A stretch of 35,476 bases of DNA from Nitrospiria bacterium. Lineage in GTDB: Bacteria; Nitrospirota; UBA9217. Numbering within the stretch: position 1 is the stretch's first letter; each line of letters begins with the position of its first letter. Positions 7,006-21,974 of this stretch are shown piece by piece. The translations under genes were made by a program, and so were the position numbers. The stretch lies in assembly GCA_919901555.1 (NCBI GenBank), contig CAKKPG010000040.1, positions 1-35,476 of the forward strand. Direction: 5' to 3'. The notes below the pieces were generated by a model. That model saw nothing but the letters and a program-made list of their open reading frames with translations. It did no database searches and was not told where the DNA came from.

Positions 7006-8367
7006 CTATTCCGACTCGTATTTCTGCAGGCGGTGCCTGAATGAACGAAAGGACAGGCCGAGGATTTTCGCGGCTTCTGTTTTCACGCCGCCGGTCTTCT
7101 CCAGCGCTTTCCGAAGGAGGGTCTTCTCGGCATTTTCCAGGAGCATTCCCAGATCGATGCCGCCGTCGGGGATATCCGAGGGGACCAGTTCGGAGCAGGG
7201 CTGCTCGTTCCTGATCGTGTCCGGCACGTGCTCAAGGCGTATCAGGTCCCCTGATGCGAGGATCACCAGCCGCTCAACGGTGTTCTCCAGTTCCCGGACG
7301 TTTCCCGGCCACCGATTGTTGATCAAGATCTTCATTGCCTCGGGGGTCATCCGCTTCGGCTCCCCTCCCCCCGAAAATTTCTTGAGAAAAAATTCCACCA
7401 GCGGAGGGACATCTTCCTTGCGTTCGCGAAGCGGCGGCAGTTGGATGGGGAGCACGTTCAACCGGTAGTAAAGGTCTTCCCTGAAGGCTCCGCTCTTGAC
7501 CTCGTTGAGGAGGTTCTTATTGCTCGCGGCGATCACCCGCACGTCCACTTTGACATCGGCCGTTCCGCCGACGCGTTTGAACTCACGCTCCTGGAGCACC
7601 CGGAGGAGTTTGATCTGGAGGGCGGGCGTCGTGGCGCTGATCTCATCGAGAAAAATGGTCCCGCCGTTGGCCGCCTCGAAGAGCCCCTGCTTGTTCGACA
7701 CGGCGCCGGTGAATGCGCCCTTCATATAGCCGAACAGTTCGCTTTCGAGGAGCGTCTCCGGAAGGGCGCCGCAGTTTATGGTGACGAAGGGGCCCGTTTT
7801 GCGCGAGCTGTTGAAGTGGACCGCGCGGGCGACCAGCTCTTTTCCCGTGCCGCTCTCCCCCGTTATGAGCACGGTGCTCCGGGTGTCGGCCACCTGCCGG
7901 ATGAGGGAAAAAACGCTCTGCATGGGCGGGCTTTTGCCGATGAAGTTCTCAAACCCCGCGCGGGACTCCATCTCCCGCCTGAGCAGGATATTTTCCTTTC
8001 TCAAAGAGCGCTTTTCGAGGGCCTTCCGGATGACCAGCTTGATCTCTTCCACCTTGAACGGTTTCGTGATGTAATCGTAGGCGCCGAGCTTCATGGCTTC
8101 GACGGCCGTCTCGGTGGTGGCAAAGGCGGTGATCATGAGCACGACGGTTTCCGGAGAGACGTCCTTTACCATCGTGAGCACTTCAAGGCCGTCCATGCGG
8201 GGCATTTTCACGTCGGTGATCACAAGGTCGAAGATCTCGGCCTGCACGGCCCGCAGTGCGTCTTCACCATTCCCGGCAATCGAGACCTCATACCCTTCTT
8301 TTTTGAGCATGATCGAGAGAAAATCCCGCATGCTTTTTTCATCATCCACGACAAGTATCCTGGTCAT
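7006..8367 (-). CDS. pilR: PilR-like sigma54-dependent response regulator
   Basis: NtrC-class activator that opens sigma54 promoters when phosphorylated. The 453-residue product has a receiver domain (about 1-120; acidic VDDE and the phosphorylatable Asp in ITDVKMP), an AAA+ domain with Walker A GESGTGKE and the sigma54-contact loop GAFTGA, Walker B GGTIFLDEI, and a C-terminal Fis-type HTH (TEAAKILGLSFRSFRHRLQKY). The ATG at 8367 starts MTRILVVDD; one four codons upstream is also possible. It directly follows a PilS-like kinase in the pilus operon, so PilR is the best assignment. In known systems PilR activates pilin (pilA) transcription; no pilA is present here. Confidence 0.93.
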   Translation of the reverse strand: MTRILVVDDEKSMRDFLSIMLKKEGYEVSIAGNGEDALRAVQAEIFDLVITDVKMPRMDGLEVLTMVKDVSPETVVLMITAFATTETAVEAMKLGAYDYITKPFKVEEIKLVIRKALEKRSLRKENILLRREMESRAGFENFIGKSPPMQSVFSLIRQVADTRSTVLITGESGTGKELVARAVHFNSSRKTGPFVTINCGALPETLLESELFGYMKGAFTGAVSNKQGLFEAANGGTIFLDEISATTPALQIKLLRVLQEREFKRVGGTADVKVDVRVIAASNKNLLNEVKSGAFREDLYYRLNVLPIQLPPLRERKEDVPPLVEFFLKKFSGGGEPKRMTPEAMKILINNRWPGNVRELENTVERLVILASGDLIRLEHVPDTIRNEQPCSELVPSDIPDGGIDLGMLLENAEKTLLRKALEKTGGVKTEAAKILGLSFRSFRHRLQKYESE

Positions 8368-8412
8368 ATTCTCACTCACGAAAAGAACGGCCCCGAATGC
8401 ACGACGCGCCTT

Positions 8413-10074
8413 CTACCGGATGAGCGCCGTCACTTCAGGCATCGGCAGCCTGATTCTGAATGTGGTCCCCTCTCCCGGTTTGCTTTCGACGGCGATCGTG
8501 CCTCCATGGTCCTCGATGATCCGGTAGACGATCGCCAGTCCGAGGCCGGTGCCGCCGGTCTTGGTGGTAAAGAACGGCTCGAAGATCTTTTCCAGGTGCT
8601 CGGGCCCGATCCCCGCGCCCGTATCCGAGAAAATTATTTCCAGCCACTCATCATCGCCCTGCCCCGGCGAAAGCCGGACGGCGCTGATCCTGATCTCGCC
8701 GCCCTCGGGCATGGCCTGGCAGGAATTGATGAGGAAGTTCCACAACACCTGCCGCAAGCGATGGGGGTCGCCCTTGATCACGGCCCGGTCGTCCACGGCG
8801 CAGGTAATCAGAATGCTCTCCTTGAAATCCCTGCTGTTTTTAAACAGAGTAATTGCGTCATGAAACAGGGCCGCCGGCGATATCTCTTCCAGCGACGACG
8901 TTCTCGGCCGGGCATATTCCAGAAATTCGGTAATAATCGTGTTCAGCCGGTCGGTCTCGCGGAGGACGATATCCATAAGGTGCTTGCCGTCGCCCTGGAG
9001 GCTCAGTTCACCCTGGAGCATCTGGATCGAACCGCTGAGGGAGGCGAGGGGGTTCCGTATTTCATGGGCAATGCCCGCTGCAAGGCTCCCGACCGTGGCA
9101 AGGCGCTCCTGCCTTCTTACGTTTTCCTCCATTTCAACCATCCTGGTGATGTCCTGAAAGATCAGAATGATGCCGCGGACGTTATCCCGATCATCTTTGA
9201 GCAAAGAAGCCGTCATGCCGAGTATGGCTGCGCTCCCGTCGCTCTTCCTTATTTCTCCCTCGAAATTAAAAGAGCGCTCTTTCAGGTCTTCCGTATGGCC
9301 GAACAGGGACTTTATGGTCGCACCGAACACTTCCTGCCAGCGGCCCTTGATCTGAGCAAAGCCGTATCCCGTGATCTGCTCTGCCGCCGGGTTCCAGGAC
9401 GTGATAGTCCCGTCCATATCCAGCGTGACGATCCCGTTCCCGACGCTCCGGAGTATGTGGTCCTGGAACACACGGAGGTCATCGAAGTCCGTGCTTTTTT
9501 CCTGGAGTTCCTGGCGCGTTTTTCGCAGACGTTCGGAAAGATAGCCGCTCAGGAAGGCAACCGTATAAAAGGAAAGAAGATTGATGATGACCTGGTAGAG
9601 GACCTGCACGGCGGTAAAATTCCGGCTCCGCACGAACACGAGAACATTGTAATGCTGCATGTCCAGCATGCCCCCGTACAGGATGCTTGCCAGGGATGCG
9701 GAAAGATAACCGCCCCTGCGGTACAGGATGATGCTTGCGGAAATGATCATCAGATGATAGAGAAGCGAAAGACCGCTGTCGATCCCACCGGTAAGGTGTA
9801 CGAGAAAGGTCACGAGGATGATATCGACGGCGATCTGAAGGTACGCGAAAAGCGGAAGGTTGGACGTTTTCGGCAGCAGATACCAGTAGGCGCCGCTGAG
9901 AATATAGACGAAAAGAGTGAAATAATAGAGGTATGCGGCGTGAAATGGATAAATCCTGTATCGATGCTGGAAAAAAATAAGGGTGCCGAGCAGAAAGGTC
10001 AGGAGCACGACCCTGCTCACGATCAACCACTTTATTCGTGTCGTGTACTCCTCTCTTGAATACCCCGGATTCAC
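8413..10074 (-). CDS. pilS: PilS-like sensor histidine kinase
   Basis: Membrane sensor kinase expected to phosphorylate the adjacent PilR-like regulator. The 553-residue product has about six N-terminal hydrophobic segments (residues 15-185) as in PilS, then a PAS domain (about 205-320; [27 protein letters not shown]). The HisKA box follows ([20 protein letters not shown], phospho-accepting His), then a GHKL ATPase domain with N box [14 protein letters not shown] and G boxes DTGAGIG and [13 protein letters not shown]. It starts 8 bases after the pilC stop codon. In Pseudomonas, PilS senses pilin in the membrane; whether this one does is inference. Confidence 0.92.
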
Positions 10075-10082
10075 TTGACTTC

Positions 10083-11297
10083 TTAACCGCCCGCCAGTGC
10101 GCCCATCTGGAATATAGGCATGTACATGGCCACGATCACGAACCCTACGGTAACGCCGAGAAAGATCATGAGCATGGGTTCGAGCATGGACGTAAGGGCC
10201 GCAACGGCCGAATCCACTTCATCATCATAAAAATCAGCGATCTTGCCGAGCATGTTGTCCAGGGCGCCGGTGGCTTCACCCACGGAAATCATCTGGGTGA
10301 CCATGGGCGGAAAGACCTTGGCCTTGCTCAAGGGTTCGGCAAGGGTCTTACCTTCGCTCACACTCTGCCGCGTGGCAAGGACCGCTTCTTCCACGACCTT
10401 ATTGCCTGCCGTTCGGGCCACGATCAACAGTCCTTCCAGGATCGGCACGCCGCTTGAGATGAGCGTTCCGAGGGTGCGGGTAAACTTCGCCACGGCGACT
10501 TTCCGAATGAGCACGCCCACAACAGGTACTTTAAGTGCAATGCCGTCCGTTATCCGTTTCCCGGTCACGGTCTTTCTCCACTGCACAAGGCCTACGATGA
10601 ATCCCGCGATTGAAATTGCAAGGATCAGACCGCCCCACCCTTTGAGGAAGTTGCTGATGAAGATCACAATGCGCGTGGGCAGCGGCAGAGCCTGGCCCAT
10701 CTCCGCGAACATGCCGGCCAGCATGGGGACAACGACGACCATCAGAAGGGCCACCACGCCGACGGCCACGCTGAGAATCACCGAAGGGTAGATCATTGCC
10801 GACTTGATCTGTCTTTTGATCTTGGCGAACTTCTCCATGTACGAAGCAAGGCGCTGGAGGATCGTATCGAGGATACCGCCCGCCTCGCCTGCCATGACCA
10901 TGTTTACGTAAAGATCGTTAAAAGCCTTGGGATGTTTTTTGAGCGCCTCACCGAAGGTGGCGCCGCTTTCCACATCGGACCGCACCTGGGTAACGATCTT
11001 TGAGAGTGATTTGTTTTCCGTCTGCGTCCCGAGGATCTCAAGGCACTGCACGAGCGGCAACCCGGCATCGATCATGGTGGCGAGCTGCCGGGTGAATATA
11101 ACGACGTCTTTATCGGTCACGCTTGCTGCGCCGAATTGAAGAGTAAGCGACTTCGGCTTGGCTGCGACGGTGATAGGAAGAATATTCTGCTTCCGCAGCA
11201 GAGAGATGACTTCATCCTTGCTGTTCGCCGCCAGCTCGCCTTTCTGGATCGCTCCCTGGCGCGTCTTCCCTTCCCATTTAAATACGGTCGTTGCCAT
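10083..11297 (-). CDS. pilC: Type IV pilus inner-membrane platform protein PilC
   Basis: Polytopic platform protein on which the PilB and PilT motors act. The 404-residue length is standard. It begins with FKWEGKTRQGAIQKGEL, the common start of the PilC/GspF family, and has two T2SSF domains (about 70-195 and 270-395), each ending in hydrophobic segments (about 168-200, 218-240, 375-397). The signatures FTRQLATMIDAGLPLVQCLE and FTRTLGTLISSGVPILEGL mark the two repeats. The ribosome-binding site GAGGTGA is adjacent to the ATG, and the gap to pilT is 12 bases. Confidence 0.97.
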   Translation of the reverse strand: MATTVFKWEGKTRQGAIQKGELAANSKDEVISLLRKQNILPITVAAKPKSLTLQFGAASVTDKDVVIFTRQLATMIDAGLPLVQCLEILGTQTENKSLSKIVTQVRSDVESGATFGEALKKHPKAFNDLYVNMVMAGEAGGILDTILQRLASYMEKFAKIKRQIKSAMIYPSVILSVAVGVVALLMVVVVPMLAGMFAEMGQALPLPTRIVIFISNFLKGWGGLILAISIAGFIVGLVQWRKTVTGKRITDGIALKVPVVGVLIRKVAVAKFTRTLGTLISSGVPILEGLLIVARTAGNKVVEEAVLATRQSVSEGKTLAEPLSKAKVFPPMVTQMISVGEATGALDNMLGKIADFYDDEVDSAVAALTSMLEPMLMIFLGVTVGFVIVAMYMPIFQMGALAGG

Positions 11298-11309
11298 TCA
11301 TCACCTCGA

Positions 11310-12413
11310 TCAGCGGTATTCCTTCGGGGTCGTCTGCGCAGCCGCAAGGCCTGAACGGCCGAGCATCTGTATGAGTTCGTCCGCATTGGAAGACCTGCCG
11401 ACGCAGTCTTCGTAGGAAATCTGCTTCTTGACATAGAGCTCGTAGAGGGACTGGTTCAAGGTCTGCATGCCGAATTTGGCCTGCCCCGTCTGCATGATGG
11501 AATAGACCTGATGGATCTTATCTTCACGGATCAGGTTCCGGATCGCGGCGTTCGGTATCATGACCTCCAGGGCGAGCACCCTCCCGCCGCCTGCGCGGGT
11601 GATAAGCTGCTGTGATACGACGCCTTCGAGGACGAACGAAAGCTGCGCCCTGACCTGGGACTGCTGGTGGGGAGGGAACACGTCGATAATGCGGTTCATG
11701 GTCTGCGCGGCCGAGTTCGTGTGGAGCGTTGCAAAGGTAAGATGGCCCGTCTCGGCGATGGTCAACGCGGCCTCGATGGTCTCAAGGTCGCGCATTTCGC
11801 CCACGAGCACCACGTCGGGGTCCTGGCGGAGGATGTATTTCAATGCGTCCTTGAACGACTTGGTGTCGGCGTTCACCTCGCGCTGGTTCACCAGGCATTT
11901 TTTGTGCGGGTGCAGATATTCGATGGGGTCCTCGATGGTGATAATATGCTCCTGCCGCTCGCCGTTGATCTTGTCGATCATCGAGGCAAGGGTCGTCGAT
12001 TTGCCGCTTCCCGTCGGCCCGGTGACCAGGACGAGCCCCCGCGGTTTTTTGCATAAATCGGAAACTATCTCGGGAAGCCCCAGTTCCTGGAACGTCTTTA
12101 TTTTGAACGGGATGGTCCTGATCGCCGCCGCCACGGCGCCCCGCTGCACGAAGATGTTCGCGCGGAACCGTGAGAGGCCTTTTACCCCGAAGGAGAGGTC
12201 AAGCTCGTTGTTCTCCTCGAACTTGTGCTTCTGTGCGTCCGTGAGAATGCTGTAACAAAGGTCCTTGGTCTGGGTGGCGGACAGGGCCTCCAGCCCGGGG
12301 ATCGGCTTCATCTTGCCGTCCACGCGGATGGTCGGCGGTATTGCCGTCGTGATATGAAGGTCGGAAGCGCCCTTTTCGATCATGTACTTGAGCAGGTCAT
12401 GTAAATTGGCCAT
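11310..12413 (-). CDS. pilT: Type IV pilus retraction ATPase PilT
   Basis: Hexameric ATPase that disassembles pili, giving twitching movement and DNA uptake. The 367-residue product has an N-terminal PAS-like domain (1-100) and a RecA-like core with Walker A GPTGSGKSTT, an Asp box (IEDPIEYLH), Walker B with VGEMRDLETI and the His box GHLTFATLHTNSA. The C-terminal region contains EVMIPNAAIRNLIREDK, a variant of the AIRNLIRE motif needed for retraction in PilT. AAGGAG precedes the ATG at 6 bases. It stands between pilB and pilC, a common order. Confidence 0.97.
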   Translation of the reverse strand: MANLHDLLKYMIEKGASDLHITTAIPPTIRVDGKMKPIPGLEALSATQTKDLCYSILTDAQKHKFEENNELDLSFGVKGLSRFRANIFVQRGAVAAAIRTIPFKIKTFQELGLPEIVSDLCKKPRGLVLVTGPTGSGKSTTLASMIDKINGERQEHIITIEDPIEYLHPHKKCLVNQREVNADTKSFKDALKYILRQDPDVVLVGEMRDLETIEAALTIAETGHLTFATLHTNSAAQTMNRIIDVFPPHQQSQVRAQLSFVLEGVVSQQLITRAGGGRVLALEVMIPNAAIRNLIREDKIHQVYSIMQTGQAKFGMQTLNQSLYELYVKKQISYEDCVGRSSNADELIQMLGRSGLAAAQTTPKEYR

Positions 12414-12445
12414 CCAGAGCTCCTTCTCGCACTCAGAGAGCGCTT

Positions 12446-12495
12446 ATTTTCCCCGGGAGCCGCGTGCGATGCCGCAGCCGCTCAAAAGGGGAAAT
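12446..12495. other. Structured spacer between pilB and pilT
   Basis: In the 90-base pilB-pilT gap, attttcccc (12446-12454) can pair with ggggaaat (12488-12495) around a GC-rich interior with a short gagc/gctc pairing. On the minus strand the 3' arm is followed by AATAAGCGC rather than a U-run. It may modulate read-through from pilB or set relative amounts of the two ATPases, but no known regulatory RNA was recognised. Confidence 0.35.
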
Positions 12496-12503
12496 CACTA
12501 TTG

Positions 12504-14216
12504 TTAATCGGCAAAGGTCGTGCCGACTACTTCTTCCAGGGATGTCAGCCCCTCCTTGACCTTCGACAGTCCGCTCATGCGGAGCGTCTTCATCCCCAGT
12601 TTTACGGCTAATTTTTTGATATCGAGGGCCGAGGCCCCCTGGAGGATCAATTCTTTTATCTCTTCCTTCACCGGCATGACCTCGTACAGGGCGATCCTGC
12701 CCTTGTAGCCGGTATTATTGCACGCGTTGCACCCCTCGCCCTTGTAGCTGACGACCGTGGCCGCGTCTTCCTTCGTGAATCCGGCGTCGATGAACGTCTG
12801 CGTCGGCACTTTTTCGGGCTTTTTGCAGTTCTGGCAGCTCTTGCGGACGAGCCTCTGTGCCAGGATCAGGATAACCGACGAAGACACGAGGAAAGGCTCC
12901 ACGCCCATGTTGAGCAGACGGTTGATGGTGCTCGGCGCGTCATTGGTGTGCAGCGTCGAAAGCACGAGGTGGCCCGTGAGCGCCGCCTTGACGGCGATCT
13001 CGGCCGTCTCATAATCGCGGATCTCCCCCACCATGACGATGTCCGGGTCCTGACGGAGGAAGGAGCGGAGCGCGGCGGCAAAATTCAGCCCGATCTCGTC
13101 TTTCATATGGACCTGATTGACGCCCATGAGGTTGTATTCAACGGGGTCCTCCGCCGTCATGATGTTCACGTCGATGGTGTTGATCTGCTGGAGCGCCGAA
13201 TAGAGGGTCGTCGTCTTGCCGCTCCCCGTGGGGCCGGTCACGAGCGCCATGCCGTAGGGAGAGGTGATGGCGTCCATGAAGTCCTTGAGCGCCTTGGGCT
13301 CGAAGCCCAGCCTGGTTAGGTCGAGCATCAGGTTGCTCTTGTCCAGGATGCGCATCACGATCTTCTCGCCGAAGAGGCACGGGAGGGTGGAAACGCGGAG
13401 ATCGACTTCCTTGTCCTTGATCTTGAGCTTGATCCTTCCGTCCTGGGGCAGGCGGCGTTCGGCGATGTCGAGTTCCGCCATGATCTTGAGCCTGGAGGTA
13501 AGCGCCGCCCGGAGCTTCATGGGCGGCGACATAACTTCGTACAGGGAGCCGTCGATGCGGTAGCGCACCCGGAAGGACTTTTCGTACGCCTCGATGTGGA
13601 TATCACTGGCGCCCTTCTGCACGGCGTCGGTAAGAATGAGGTTCACCAGCTTCACCACCGGCGCGTCTTCCACCTCGGCCTTGAGCTTGGCCACGTCGAT
13701 CTTTTCCTCTTCTTCGTGGATGACGCCGACGGACTTGTCGTCCTCTTGAAGGGAGGTCATCACCTTCTCAATGGCGGAGGTGAGGCTGTAATACTTGGCG
13801 ATAGAGCTCTTGATGCCGGCCTCGGTGGCCACTACCGGTTCAACGTTATAGCCGGTCATGAACTTTACATCATCTATTGCGAAGACGTTGGAAGGGTCCA
13901 CCATGGCGATGGTGATCGTCGCGCCGGTGCGGTTGATCGGCATGATCTGGTATTTCTGGGCGACCTCGGAAGGAATGAGCTTTACCACATTGACATCTAC
14001 ATCGAACCGGTTGAGGTCCACATAGGGCACGCCGTACTGCTTGCTCAGGAACATCATGAGCTTCTCTTCCTGAACAAAATTCATTTTCACGAGGATCGAG
14101 CCGAGCCTGCCGCCCTCTTTCTGCTGAACGGCCAGCGCCTTTTTGAGCTGTTCCTCGTTAATGAGGCCCGAGGACACGAGCATGGCCCCCAGCCGCCCAG
14201 CCATCGCCATCGCCAT
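12504..14216 (-). CDS. pilB: Type IV pilus assembly ATPase PilB
   Basis: Extension motor that powers pilin polymerisation. The 570-residue product has the N-terminal MshEN/GspE-N domain (about 1-150; GRLGAMLVSSGLINEEQL) and the secretion ATPase core. Visible core motifs are Walker A GPTGSGKTTT, the Asp box TAEDPVEYN, Walker B VGEIRDYETAEIA and the His box GHLVLSTLHTND. A tetracysteine zinc motif, CQNC with CNAC 30-odd residues later, is typical of PilB and absent from PilT. The ATG at 14216 has AGAAGGAG at 6-base spacing. It is the first gene of the pilus operon and has its own promoter. Confidence 0.97.
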   Translation of the reverse strand: MAMAMAGRLGAMLVSSGLINEEQLKKALAVQQKEGGRLGSILVKMNFVQEEKLMMFLSKQYGVPYVDLNRFDVDVNVVKLIPSEVAQKYQIMPINRTGATITIAMVDPSNVFAIDDVKFMTGYNVEPVVATEAGIKSSIAKYYSLTSAIEKVMTSLQEDDKSVGVIHEEEEKIDVAKLKAEVEDAPVVKLVNLILTDAVQKGASDIHIEAYEKSFRVRYRIDGSLYEVMSPPMKLRAALTSRLKIMAELDIAERRLPQDGRIKLKIKDKEVDLRVSTLPCLFGEKIVMRILDKSNLMLDLTRLGFEPKALKDFMDAITSPYGMALVTGPTGSGKTTTLYSALQQINTIDVNIMTAEDPVEYNLMGVNQVHMKDEIGLNFAAALRSFLRQDPDIVMVGEIRDYETAEIAVKAALTGHLVLSTLHTNDAPSTINRLLNMGVEPFLVSSSVILILAQRLVRKSCQNCKKPEKVPTQTFIDAGFTKEDAATVVSYKGEGCNACNNTGYKGRIALYEVMPVKEEIKELILQGASALDIKKLAVKLGMKTLRMSGLSKVKEGLTSLEEVVGTTFAD

Positions 14217-18606: not shown

Positions 18607-18641
18607 GAAACAGGCAGGCAAATTCGCCTGCCTTCTGTTTC
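18607..18641 (-). terminator. Terminator downstream of the multiheme cytochrome gene
   Basis: aggcaggc and gcctgcc(t) form an 8-bp GC-rich stem around the loop aaattc, extended by gaaaca/tgtttc after a two-base bulge. On the minus strand the hairpin is followed by ATTTTGTGG, moderately T-rich. It lies about 50 bases beyond the cytochrome stop codon and in front of the Uma2 gene. Confidence 0.7.
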
Positions 18642-18693: not shown

Positions 18694-20790
18694 CTACTGA
18701 TGACACCCTGTTCCTGATATCCCACCCCCAGTTGTGCAGTTATCGATTTCAGCATTACCATAGGGTGGTGAAGCCGGTAGTGTTGCACTACTGATTTTAG
18801 CACTTCCCCCAGCCGCATAGGTCGTGACATCTGCTCCGTCTGTACCGAGCACAATCATTGCCTTATTTTTATATCCGTGCGGTATCCGCGTATGGCAGTT
18901 CACGCATCGATATGCGTAGAGCGATGAAGGGCTTGACGTTGCAAGGCTTTTGTGGCGGGTGTGAAGATTGTAGGCGTCGTTCCTGAAACCCGTCCCCGTT
19001 CCTGCCGGTGTTTCCGGTCCCGAAAGATAGGTACTTACATCATGGCACGTAAAGCAGAGATCCGTGCTCGGCTGGACAGGATCGGTTTTTGCCCCTATTG
19101 AATCAGTGTAGGCGTAGGATAAAATGAATTTTTCGCTGGAACCGTGCGGTCCCTGGGGCGAAATCCCTCCGTTCCTCGTATGGCAGTCGGAACAATACAT
19201 GGTCTGTGTGCCGCTGTTCCAACCTCCTGTATAGGTCCCCGCTGTATTGGCATTCGTACCGCCAACGGGGTGGAACGATGCATTGCCCGGATTGAATTCC
19301 TTGGCCTGGTCCGTCATGGCGGCGCCCAGTGACGGCGAGGTCGGCGGGGCCCCTGCCCCCCACGCAAAGGAGCTGTGGCACTTGAAGCACACCTCGTATT
19401 CTTTATCGGCAACGGTTGATACATTATTGACAGCGCCGAGCGGTTCAATATAGGTAAAATTGGTCGATAACGGCGCTGTCCATGCCAAAGGCCACGATGA
19501 CATCCGTGCGCCGCCGGCGCCATACAAAGGGCTCAACGTCGCGCTGACGGCGCTGATGGTATTCAGCCCGATGCTGTGCAAAACGCCGCCTGCGGTGTGC
19601 GGGTTGTGGCAATCCTGGCACTCCACATGCCACGGCGTGGAACCGAGCCAGCCATTCGGATTATAGTCTTTTCCCTCTGTGGCCTTATGGATGTTTGTAT
19701 AGTTCTTTACATGGTGTGCATAGGTCTTGCCTGTTTCGCTCTCGACATTTCTTTTGCCGGCATTAATTCCCGTAGCCGTGCTCCCATGACAAACGCCCGC
19801 GGAACCGGCAGTGCCCCACCGATCGTTCGGATTGTTAAAACAGCTGCCCTCCTCCTGAAACGAGAGCAGATACATACCCATGCCGGGATTTGGCGTTGTG
19901 GGCGCTGTGGCGGTCACGCCGGCTTTATGCGGAAAATGGCAGTCCATGCACTTCACTTCACCGACAGTACTTCCGAGAACACCGGAACCCGTGCCGTTCG
20001 GGGGGGCGTAGGAAAGTGAAGAAACATCATGAATGCTCAGGGTGAACCCTGTTTTGTTGTGACAGCTCGCGCAGATACCTGATTGAGAGTTAGAGTCTAC
20101 GAGGAAATTGCCATACTGATTATCATGGGCATTATGGCATGAGGTGCATTCTACATAACCCGTGCCTGTGGTGTTTTGCGTCTTCACGGCCGTGCTGTCA
20201 TAAAGCCATATCTTGTTTCCCGTAATCAGCCCCCTGAGCTCAGGATCTTGCCCCGGACCGGAACCACTGACGTACTTAATCGCCACGGGATGGTCGTCGC
20301 GAAGGTCAATGCCAACGTAGCCGGCCGCGGTCTGGGGCATTTTGTAGTCCGCTCCGGTGCCCTGCATCGGGATGGTGGAGACGCCGGAGGGCATGTTCAC
20401 CAGTGAACCAAGGGCAATGGTCCCGTCGTGGCAGGAAAGGCAGATTCTGGTTTTCACATGGGCGCCCGTTGCCGGAGACTCTGCCGCGGGATAGGTGCCG
20501 CCGCCGAGCTGGGACAGGACATCGCTGGTGTAAACCGTATATAAAGCGGTAGACATGTTTCTGTTCCATAGCGGTCGTAGAGAAGCGTCCGATCCGGTCA
20601 AGGCCGAATGCGGGGTATGGCAGAAGACGCATATTTCCGAGGTGCCGGCGCCGGTCGACTTGATGGTCCCCGTACCGGAGGTCGAGAGGTTGTGCTTGGT
20701 GTTTGCTACCGGAGTGGGGGCGGCCCCGGCCATCCATGTCGCCGTGAACGTAATGAGAAAAAGGAGTATGATTATTCCGCAGCGTCTCAT
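18694..20790 (-). CDS. Exported multiheme c-type cytochrome (10 CXXCH plus two long-spaced CXnCH motifs)
   Basis: The 698-residue product has a signal peptide (MRRCGIIILLFLITFTATWMAG up to about residue 25). Ten CXXCH heme motifs start near residues 54, 117, 215, 240, 281, 391, 468, 533, 579 and 629. Two more Cys...CysHis pairs have unusual spacing: CX16CH at 317-335 and CX10CH at 685-697, the latter ending the protein. CTSCHNAH...CASCH is a typical paired-CXXCH module. No hydrophobic anchor or catalytic signature was recognised, so an electron carrier or reservoir in the periplasm or outside the cell is most likely. The ATG at 20790 has GTGAGG about 7 bases upstream; a GTG four codons earlier overlaps that site. 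It lies downstream of the NHL gene across a repeat and is followed by a terminator. Confidence 0.92.
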   Translation of the reverse strand: MRRCGIIILLFLITFTATWMAGAAPTPVANTKHNLSTSGTGTIKSTGAGTSEICVFCHTPHSALTGSDASLRPLWNRNMSTALYTVYTSDVLSQLGGGTYPAAESPATGAHVKTRICLSCHDGTIALGSLVNMPSGVSTIPMQGTGADYKMPQTAAGYVGIDLRDDHPVAIKYVSGSGPGQDPELRGLITGNKIWLYDSTAVKTQNTTGTGYVECTSCHNAHDNQYGNFLVDSNSQSGICASCHNKTGFTLSIHDVSSLSYAPPNGTGSGVLGSTVGEVKCMDCHFPHKAGVTATAPTTPNPGMGMYLLSFQEEGSCFNNPNDRWGTAGSAGVCHGSTATGINAGKRNVESETGKTYAHHVKNYTNIHKATEGKDYNPNGWLGSTPWHVECQDCHNPHTAGGVLHSIGLNTISAVSATLSPLYGAGGARMSSWPLAWTAPLSTNFTYIEPLGAVNNVSTVADKEYEVCFKCHSSFAWGAGAPPTSPSLGAAMTDQAKEFNPGNASFHPVGGTNANTAGTYTGGWNSGTQTMYCSDCHTRNGGISPQGPHGSSEKFILSYAYTDSIGAKTDPVQPSTDLCFTCHDVSTYLSGPETPAGTGTGFRNDAYNLHTRHKSLATSSPSSLYAYRCVNCHTRIPHGYKNKAMIVLGTDGADVTTYAAGGSAKISSATLPASPPYGNAEIDNCTTGGGISGTGCHQ

Positions 20791-20820
20791 AAAATACCTC
20801 ACAGGGTTAAACGTCCTAAA

Positions 20821-20932
20821 GTTACGGTTACGGTTACGATGCCCGTTACGTCTTACGGCTACGTCGTTCGTGTTGTGACGTTACCGTTGCACGCATTCCG
20901 ATACGGGCTTCGTTACCGTTACACGTTGCCGT
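20821..20932. repeat. GTAACGG-type dispersed inverted repeat, copy 2
   Basis: cggttacgatgcccgttacg (20831-20850) pairs with cgatacgggcttcgttaccg (20899-20918) at 16 of 20 positions. The reverse complement aligns with copy 1 at 92-212 through three shared blocks. It fills the space between the NHL stop codon and the cytochrome start, so it would be in the transcript if the two are co-transcribed. Confidence 0.75.
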
Positions 20933-20939
20933 TTTGCGG

Positions 20940-21974
20940 CTATTTCAAATGCTGAAACATCTGCATGCGGTAATTGTAGCTGTCCGCAACATACAGCCGG
21001 TCTTTGCCGTCCATGAACAACCCCGCGGGGACGTTGAACTGTCCCCGTTCAATGCCCATTCTGCCGAAGATGAGGAGCAGCCTGCCCTGACGGTCGAAGA
21101 CCTGGATGCTGTTCCTGAGGCTGTCGGAAACCCACAGGTGGCCCTCACTGTCCACGGCAATGCCTTTGGGCTTGATGAAATCATGGATGCTCGTGCCGTT
21201 TCCTCCGAATTTCGACAGAAACTTCCCCGCCTTGTCGAATATCTGCACGCGGAAGTTGAGGGTATCCACCACGTACACGTCCCCCTGGCCGTCGATGGCG
21301 ACATGGGTGGGGAAATTGAACTCCCCGTCACCGGCGCCCCTGCTGCCGAAGGAGAACAGCCTTTTCCCGGCGAGATCGAATATCTCCACCCGGTGCCCAC
21401 GGGTGTCCACGACGTAAAGGGTTTTCTCCGTCCTGTTGACTGCAATTCCCGTGGGACGAAGCAGGGTGTCGTCGCCTATCACCCGCTTGTTCTTGCTCCC
21501 GTCGAACACAAACACCCGTCTCCTGACCGAATCTGAGACGTACAGGAGGCCATCGGCATCGAGTGCCGCCCCGATGGGAGAGGCGAGCGGCCCCAGCTTG
21601 GTTTTGGAAAACTTGTCATATTTTTTTTTCTCGAAATCGAAGAAGTGAATGCATGAGCCTCCCCAGTCGGCAATGTATACCTTGCCGTCGCCGTCGGCCG
21701 CAACGCCGTGGGGGGAGATGATGCGGTCTACCGTGTCCTCGCCCGCGATGAACTCCCAGAGCTTCGCAAAAAATCCCTTTTTTACGCCGAGGTCCTGAGG
21801 AGTGATGAACGTTTTGATGTGCTGTATGCGCGGTTTCTCGGGGGCGAGAGGCCAGACCCAGGGCTTGTCGCTTAGGGTTTGGGACTGTTTCTCTGCGGCC
21901 TGAACACCCGGCAAGGAGAGGGCGGAGGTAAGCGCAAGCAGGCAGAACAGTATAAAAAACCGAAGAGGTTTCAT
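20940..21974 (-). CDS. Exported NHL-repeat beta-propeller protein
   Basis: The 344-residue product has a signal peptide (MKPLRFFILFCLLALTSALS, probable cleavage after VQA near residue 26) and then about six NHL repeats from residue 80 onward. Examples are PHGVAADGDGKVYIADWGG, PTGIAVNRTEKTLYVVDTRG, PTHVAIDGQGDVYVVDTLN and PKGIAVDSEGHLWVSDSLR. NHL propellers are binding scaffolds, and this one should act outside the cytoplasm. Its position directly before the multiheme cytochrome gene suggests a shared role, for example as partner or assembly scaffold; that is inference. A strong promoter lies just upstream and no ribosome-binding site is visible. Confidence 0.9.
   Translation of the reverse strand: MKPLRFFILFCLLALTSALSLPGVQAAEKQSQTLSDKPWVWPLAPEKPRIQHIKTFITPQDLGVKKGFFAKLWEFIAGEDTVDRIISPHGVAADGDGKVYIADWGGSCIHFFDFEKKKYDKFSKTKLGPLASPIGAALDADGLLYVSDSVRRRVFVFDGSKNKRVIGDDTLLRPTGIAVNRTEKTLYVVDTRGHRVEIFDLAGKRLFSFGSRGAGDGEFNFPTHVAIDGQGDVYVVDTLNFRVQIFDKAGKFLSKFGGNGTSIHDFIKPKGIAVDSEGHLWVSDSLRNSIQVFDRQGRLLLIFGRMGIERGQFNVPAGLFMDGKDRLYVADSYNYRMQMFQHLK

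Follow-up and report, generated by a model that had tools for sequence, protein, structure and literature searches.

MccA and SirA carry heme-attachment motifs of the CX15CH type, and each is served by its own lyase, CcsA1 for MccA and SirEFG for SirA (PMC6976685), a precedent that had suggested that long heme motifs need a lyase of their own. In OmcZ, a CX14CH motif binds heme 1, with the 14-residue loop placed at the subunit interface (PMC9473688). As PMC11208441 relates in a passage citing the OmcZ work, removal of this loop suppressed the reduction of soluble acceptors; the same source describes some Borg OmcZ proteins that lack the long motif (PMC11208441).

The present analysis concerns a stretch of 35,476 nucleotides from the metagenome-assembled genome (MAG) of a Nitrospiria bacterium of the phylum Nitrospirota (contig CAKKPG010000040.1, referred to as the window in its whole length), which encodes a cytochrome with twelve c-type heme motifs. 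Two of these are long, CX16CH and CX10CH. The long-spaced motif is what the protein shares with MccA/SirA; those, however, are octaheme enzymes with one long motif and a dedicated lyase, whereas the window cytochrome has twelve motifs, two of them long, and a spacing that varies within its clade. The MccA analogy drawn in the preliminary description thus did not survive comparison: no MccA chain appeared among the PDB matches at E <= 1 or in the profile search at E <= 0.1, heme number and context are different, and membership in the MccA/SirA group was rejected for want of a sequence match. OmcZ and the window cytochrome are both extracellular multiheme cytochromes (by prediction, in the window's case) with a long loop between the two cysteines of a c-heme, a loop that is absent in some OmcZ homologues. 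OmcZ, in contrast, is an octaheme nanowire protein with 8 hemes, and its chains were found in none of the phmmer, profile or Foldseek matches of the window cytochrome. Membership in the OmcZ group was therefore also dismissed, there being neither a sequence nor a fold match.

The explanation we favour, at a probability of about 0.74, is that the gene would encode a secreted twelve-heme cytochrome that takes part in extracellular electron transfer, with heme at both long sites, an OmcE-like part, an NHL protein as partner and an ordinary CcsBA synthase for its maturation.

Gene and heme motifs of the window cytochrome

The cytochrome lies in a minus-strand ORF (20802-18694) that gives 702 aa from a GTG start at 20802 and 698 aa from an ATG at 20790. 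The ATG is the more likely start codon, and a GAGG stands 6 bases upstream of it. The features referred to below are as follows; heme motifs 2–5 and 7–11 were assigned by motif scan and alignment.

20940..21974, minus strand: NHL six-bladed beta-propeller protein, conserved partner gene directly upstream (Pfam NHL, 1.9e-39)
18694..20790, minus strand: dodecaheme c-type cytochrome gene, about 698 aa (ATG start, GTG 20802 as alternative; Sec-type signal peptide; Pfam Paired_CXXCH_1 and Cytochrome_C7)
20050..20721, minus strand: OmcE-like tetraheme domain, N-terminal, residues 28-251 (phmmer, profile and Foldseek matches to 7tfs)
20617..20631, minus strand: heme motif 1, CVFCH (conserved in every alignment row covering the site)
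20428..20442, minus strand: heme motif 2, CLSCH
20134..20148, minus strand: heme motif 3, CTSCH
20059..20073, minus strand: heme motif 4, CASCH
19936..19950, minus strand: heme motif 5, CMDCH
19786..19842, minus strand: heme site 6, CX16CH (CFNNPNDRWGTAGSAGVCH), homologous to the CXXCH of 79 relatives
19606..19620, minus strand: heme motif 7, CQDCH
19375..19389, minus strand: heme motif 8, CFKCH
19180..19194, minus strand: heme motif 9, CSDCH
19042..19056, minus strand: heme motif 10, CFTCH
18892..18906, minus strand: heme motif 11, CVNCH
18700..18738, minus strand: heme site 12, CX10CH, C-terminal, homologous to the CX3CH of relatives

The ten CXXCH motifs lie at residues 58, 121, 219, 244, 285, 395, 472, 537, 583 and 633; the long ones are C321-X16-C338-H339 (19842-19786) and C689-X10-C700-H701 (18738-18700). 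The count of ten CXXCH and the coordinates of the two long motifs, already given in the preliminary description, proved exact to the base. The mature protein has 24 Cys and 12 CH, and its cysteines, 24 out of 24, form exactly twelve C..CH pairs. When the ten CXXCH were kept fixed and the remaining mature sequence was randomised, two extra C-X(3-20)-CH motifs arose by chance in 1 of 20,000 shuffles. A sequencing artefact or frameshift was considered as the source of the long motifs and discarded, given that a stretched site 6 occurs in 7 genomes of the window's family and in 13 further clade members. Programs that count CXXCH only would score this protein as a ten-heme cytochrome, so that heme counts need correction for proteins of this kind.

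Past the stop codon, at about 18611-18634 of the window, an inverted repeat (aggcaggc...gcctgcct) was noticed by eye; it could be a terminator.

Heme positions 6 and 12 in the dodecaheme family

The window cytochrome was aligned with 100 relatives (101 proteins in total) collected from GTDB genome scans and from 396 genomes of the phylum. They form a large dodecaheme family with members in Planctomycetota, Pseudomonadota, Nitrospirota and other groups. Within the window's class, 6 of 13 other genomes have the gene, all of them in one family, at 50-54% identity. The commonest form in the alignment, shown by most of the 101 proteins though not strictly, has eleven CXXCH and a C-terminal CX3CH, which makes twelve sites. 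All twelve motifs of the window cytochrome stand at positions conserved in this NHL-linked family, the long motifs occupying position 6 (CX16CH) and position 12 (CX10CH). Thus, the window protein shares with the CXXCH-type members (a paralogue on contig C153 of its own genome and 78 others) the twelve heme positions, the conserved histidines and the upstream NHL gene, and differs from them in the spacing at these two sites. In addition to the 12 proximal His, there are about 15 largely conserved His columns that do not belong to CH pairs, so that twelve bis-His hemes are possible.

At site 6, by alignment column, the second Cys and the His are present in all 101 proteins and the first Cys in 100. 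Counted by group, all 20 long-motif proteins keep C321, C338 and H339, as do 80-81 of the other 81. The spacer between the cysteines varies: it measures 2 (CXXCH) in 79 proteins, 3 in one (L045), 4 in another (L086), and 7, 11, 12, 13, 14, 16 or 17 in the 20 proteins with a long site. In a quick tree built from 552 columns these 20 make up a single clade centred on Nitrospirota (SH-aLRT 99). In most rows of both groups the flanks are alike: EE or EEx precedes the first Cys, and CHG or CHxG stands at the second. The window's own clade retains [DN]RW in the loop. One clade member, L037, is labelled Bacteroidota, perhaps through transfer or mis-binning.

Because site 6 is homologous to a normal heme site and keeps Cys, Cys and His constant while length and sequence of the spacer vary, we regard it as a working heme site, and heme is very likely bound there as judged from these sequence data. 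Both long motifs would hold heme covalently through their two cysteines with the His as proximal ligand, site 6 being a stretched CXXCH and site 12 a stretched CX3CH, each produced by in-frame insertion between the two Cys; the inserted residues would make a loop at the protein surface, close to the heme, as is the case in OmcZ. The AlphaFold model is only of moderate quality (pLDDT 63.6, pTM 0.72). Its pLDDT is under 50 in the loop of site 6 and over the whole C-terminal part, starting at residue 638 (window numbering), and the model is thus uninformative on heme geometry at sites 6 and 12.

The preliminary description had left a choice between twelve hemes and ten, the latter with both long Cys pairs as disulfides or relics. 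Disulfides could indeed preserve two cysteines, and the loops are long. A disulfide, however, leaves the invariant His beside C338 (101 of 101) without explanation, as that residue would be superfluous, and the position is occupied by CXXCH in 79 relatives. We rejected a disulfide-only site 6 on these grounds, and consider a protein with ten hemes highly improbable. Free replacement of the long-motif cysteines, looked for across the 101 proteins, was not seen, and with both motifs aligned to CXXCH or CX3CH sites of relatives the first of the two choices, twelve hemes, is most probably correct.

Site 12 is conserved less strictly. By alignment column, C689 is matched in 101 of the 101 proteins, C700 in 97 and H701 in 93, and 85 of the 101 have CX3CH. 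In the window's clade the CH follows spacers of CX3, CX5, CX6, CX7, CX10 or CX11. These figures bear on a further alternative, in which site 6 binds heme and the C-terminal CX10CH is degenerating, its Cys pair being a disulfide or unused, so that eleven hemes would be bound. Such decay would suit a site at the extreme C-terminus, where the model is disordered and where the second Cys is no longer directly followed by His in 8 of the 20 clade members. On the other hand, the Cys pair is present in 20 of 20 members by spacing count, CH is kept in the window protein and 5 of its 6 nearest relatives, and CX3CH prevails in the family at large. We therefore judge eleven hemes unlikely; at the window's site 12 the retained CH favours heme, less certainly than at site 6, and binding there is likely on the sequence evidence.

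In the C-termini of the eight members in question (L011, L013, L037, L143, L144, L147, L148 and L150), the Cys pair of site 12 is followed by a His 2-5 residues downstream, as in CYSTYSGCTTHG and CSTNCGGHGG; CTTH, CGGH and CAGDH also occur. These forms are either degenerate or an unusual attachment motif. While long CXnCH sites as such are already known (OmcZ, MccA), the graded spacer series at site 6 and the displaced-His forms at site 12 are new elements.

OmcE-like domain and gene neighbourhood

Residues of about 10-250 of the window cytochrome match OmcE (7tfs) in phmmer (6e-26) and in the profile search (3e-48). Foldseek with the AlphaFold model returned 7tfs as the sole significant PDB match (E 4e-10, TM 0.73 normalised by target). 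Over this region the protein has four CXXCH in the same order and the same conserved His as OmcE (PDB 7TFS) and the 9YUQ cytochrome. OmcE, by contrast, stands alone as a subunit of about 230 aa, whereas in the window protein some 450 residues carrying 8 additional heme motifs are joined to the domain; at 702 aa and 12 motifs the protein falls outside the stand-alone tetraheme type (about 230 aa). The eight further hemes would lengthen the chain that begins in the OmcE-homologous N-terminal domain.

The NHL gene is immediately upstream of the dodecaheme gene in 63 of 74 loci of relatives, and another multiheme or OmcE-like gene lies upstream in 57 of the 63 loci that have enough upstream sequence. 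The order polA, NHL, 12-heme is conserved in relatives of the window's family; in other phyla the NHL and 12-heme pair is found within OmcE-like/pentaheme/PPIase clusters. A similar cluster surrounds the CXXCH-type paralogue of the own genome (C153:11247-13049) and comprises an OmcE-like tetraheme, an NHL protein, a pentaheme, a 680-aa protein, a SurA/PPIase, an NHL protein and the 12-heme protein. The 680-aa protein has no Pfam match and ends in Phe; we infer that it is barrel-like. Our literature searches, with the terms tried, found no description of the 12-heme/NHL pair; 11-12-heme OmcX-related cytochromes are mentioned in Skennerton 2017.

Such gene neighbourhoods point to a role in extracellular electron transfer, and they link long heme motifs to the setting of OmcE-type nanowire genes. 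The cytochrome and the NHL beta-propeller protein from the adjacent upstream gene would act jointly. As for its place in the electron path, we infer that the cytochrome would most likely serve as an electron relay or adaptor that joins a conduit in the outer membrane either to OmcE-like filaments or to an external acceptor. A narrower form of this explanation would place the protein at the end of an OmcE-like filament, as its end piece or as its anchor in the outer membrane; the N-terminal domain would dock on the terminal subunit of the filament, and the C-terminal hemes would reach the conduit. The OmcE-like domain itself, the co-location with OmcE-like genes in other phyla and the use of a neighbouring subunit's His in OmcE filaments (PMC9473688) are all in keeping with it. 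No OmcE-like gene adjoins the cytochrome in the window, however. Since the window gene stands apart from any OmcE-like cluster, its link to filaments is one of homology only, and we treat the anchor as possible rather than probable.

Two other features of the region may be recorded. Between the NHL gene and the cytochrome gene, at 20879-20938, a 15-base repeat (CGTTACCGTTGCACG) occurs in three imperfect copies. A few kb away, at 7006-14216, are type IV pilus genes (PilR-, PilS-, PilC-, PilT- and PilB-like by Pfam), whose order is partly kept in two of the related genomes (G005 and G008).

Cytochrome c synthases and the long motifs

A lyase census of the genomes was made by family searches only. 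In the own genome it returned a main CcsBA (C59), a small ResB3/CcsA3 pair (C3) and a ResB2/CcsA2 pair, the last probably split across contigs C95 and C89; a HemX-like match beside hemA (C44) was left out of the synthase count. No dedicated heme lyase is encoded near the cytochrome by those window genes that were searched against Pfam.

According to the preliminary description, long motifs need a dedicated heme lyase, and a specialised one might be encoded elsewhere in the genome. In the additional ResB2/CcsA2 pair, ResB2 adjoins cytochromes with CX4CH motifs, not the window gene. Furthermore, the pair is absent from G005 (97% complete) and G008 (94% complete), which carry the long-motif cytochrome and hold just two synthase pairs, the same ResB/CcsA set as in the non-carriers G006, G007 and G011. 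With carriers matching non-carriers, and with loops of 7-17 within one clade, the need for such a lyase could not be upheld: from the absence of ResB2/CcsA2 in G005 and G008 we conclude that it is not generally required, an argument limited by the 94-97% completeness of these MAGs. A strictly required extra lyase was accordingly set aside as unsupported by the presence/absence table.

The corresponding alternative, that the long sites are loaded with heme only when a dedicated extra CcsBA-type lyase assists, as for MccA (CcsA1) or SirA (SirEFG), can draw on this precedent (PMC6976685), on the extra synthase beside CX4CH-rich cytochromes, and on one relative (G004), the only one in which the 12-heme gene with the long motif is followed directly by ResB-CcsA on its downstream side (L136, G004:C219, 1998-3904). 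The two-pair carriers speak against it, as does the variable loop length, which is at odds with recognition of a fixed motif. On balance we find it doubtful, and think that a helper lyase may operate in some lineages, given the G004 arrangement. For the window cytochrome, an ordinary CcsBA (System II) synthase would probably load the long sites.

A heme site that occurs with a range of spacer lengths, both in genomes that have extra synthases and in genomes that lack them, provides natural constructs for testing recognition by the cytochrome c synthase. We tentatively consider, and hold somewhat less probable than its negation, a natural series at one heme position (n = 2, 3, 4, 7, 11, 12, 13, 14, 16, 17) in which all members would bear heme and be served by ordinary CcsBA, the Cys-Cys spacing being far freer than the CXXCH rule; in addition, the C-terminal CXnC-X(2-5)-H of the 8 relatives may be a further attachment motif with a displaced His.

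The ResB2 gene forms part of a cluster (L127, G000:C95, 4424-16961) with an OmcE-like tetraheme, a 916-aa NHL protein, a 1210-aa cytochrome and a 937-aa cytochrome; the 1210-aa cytochrome has 21 CXXCH and 5 CX4CH.
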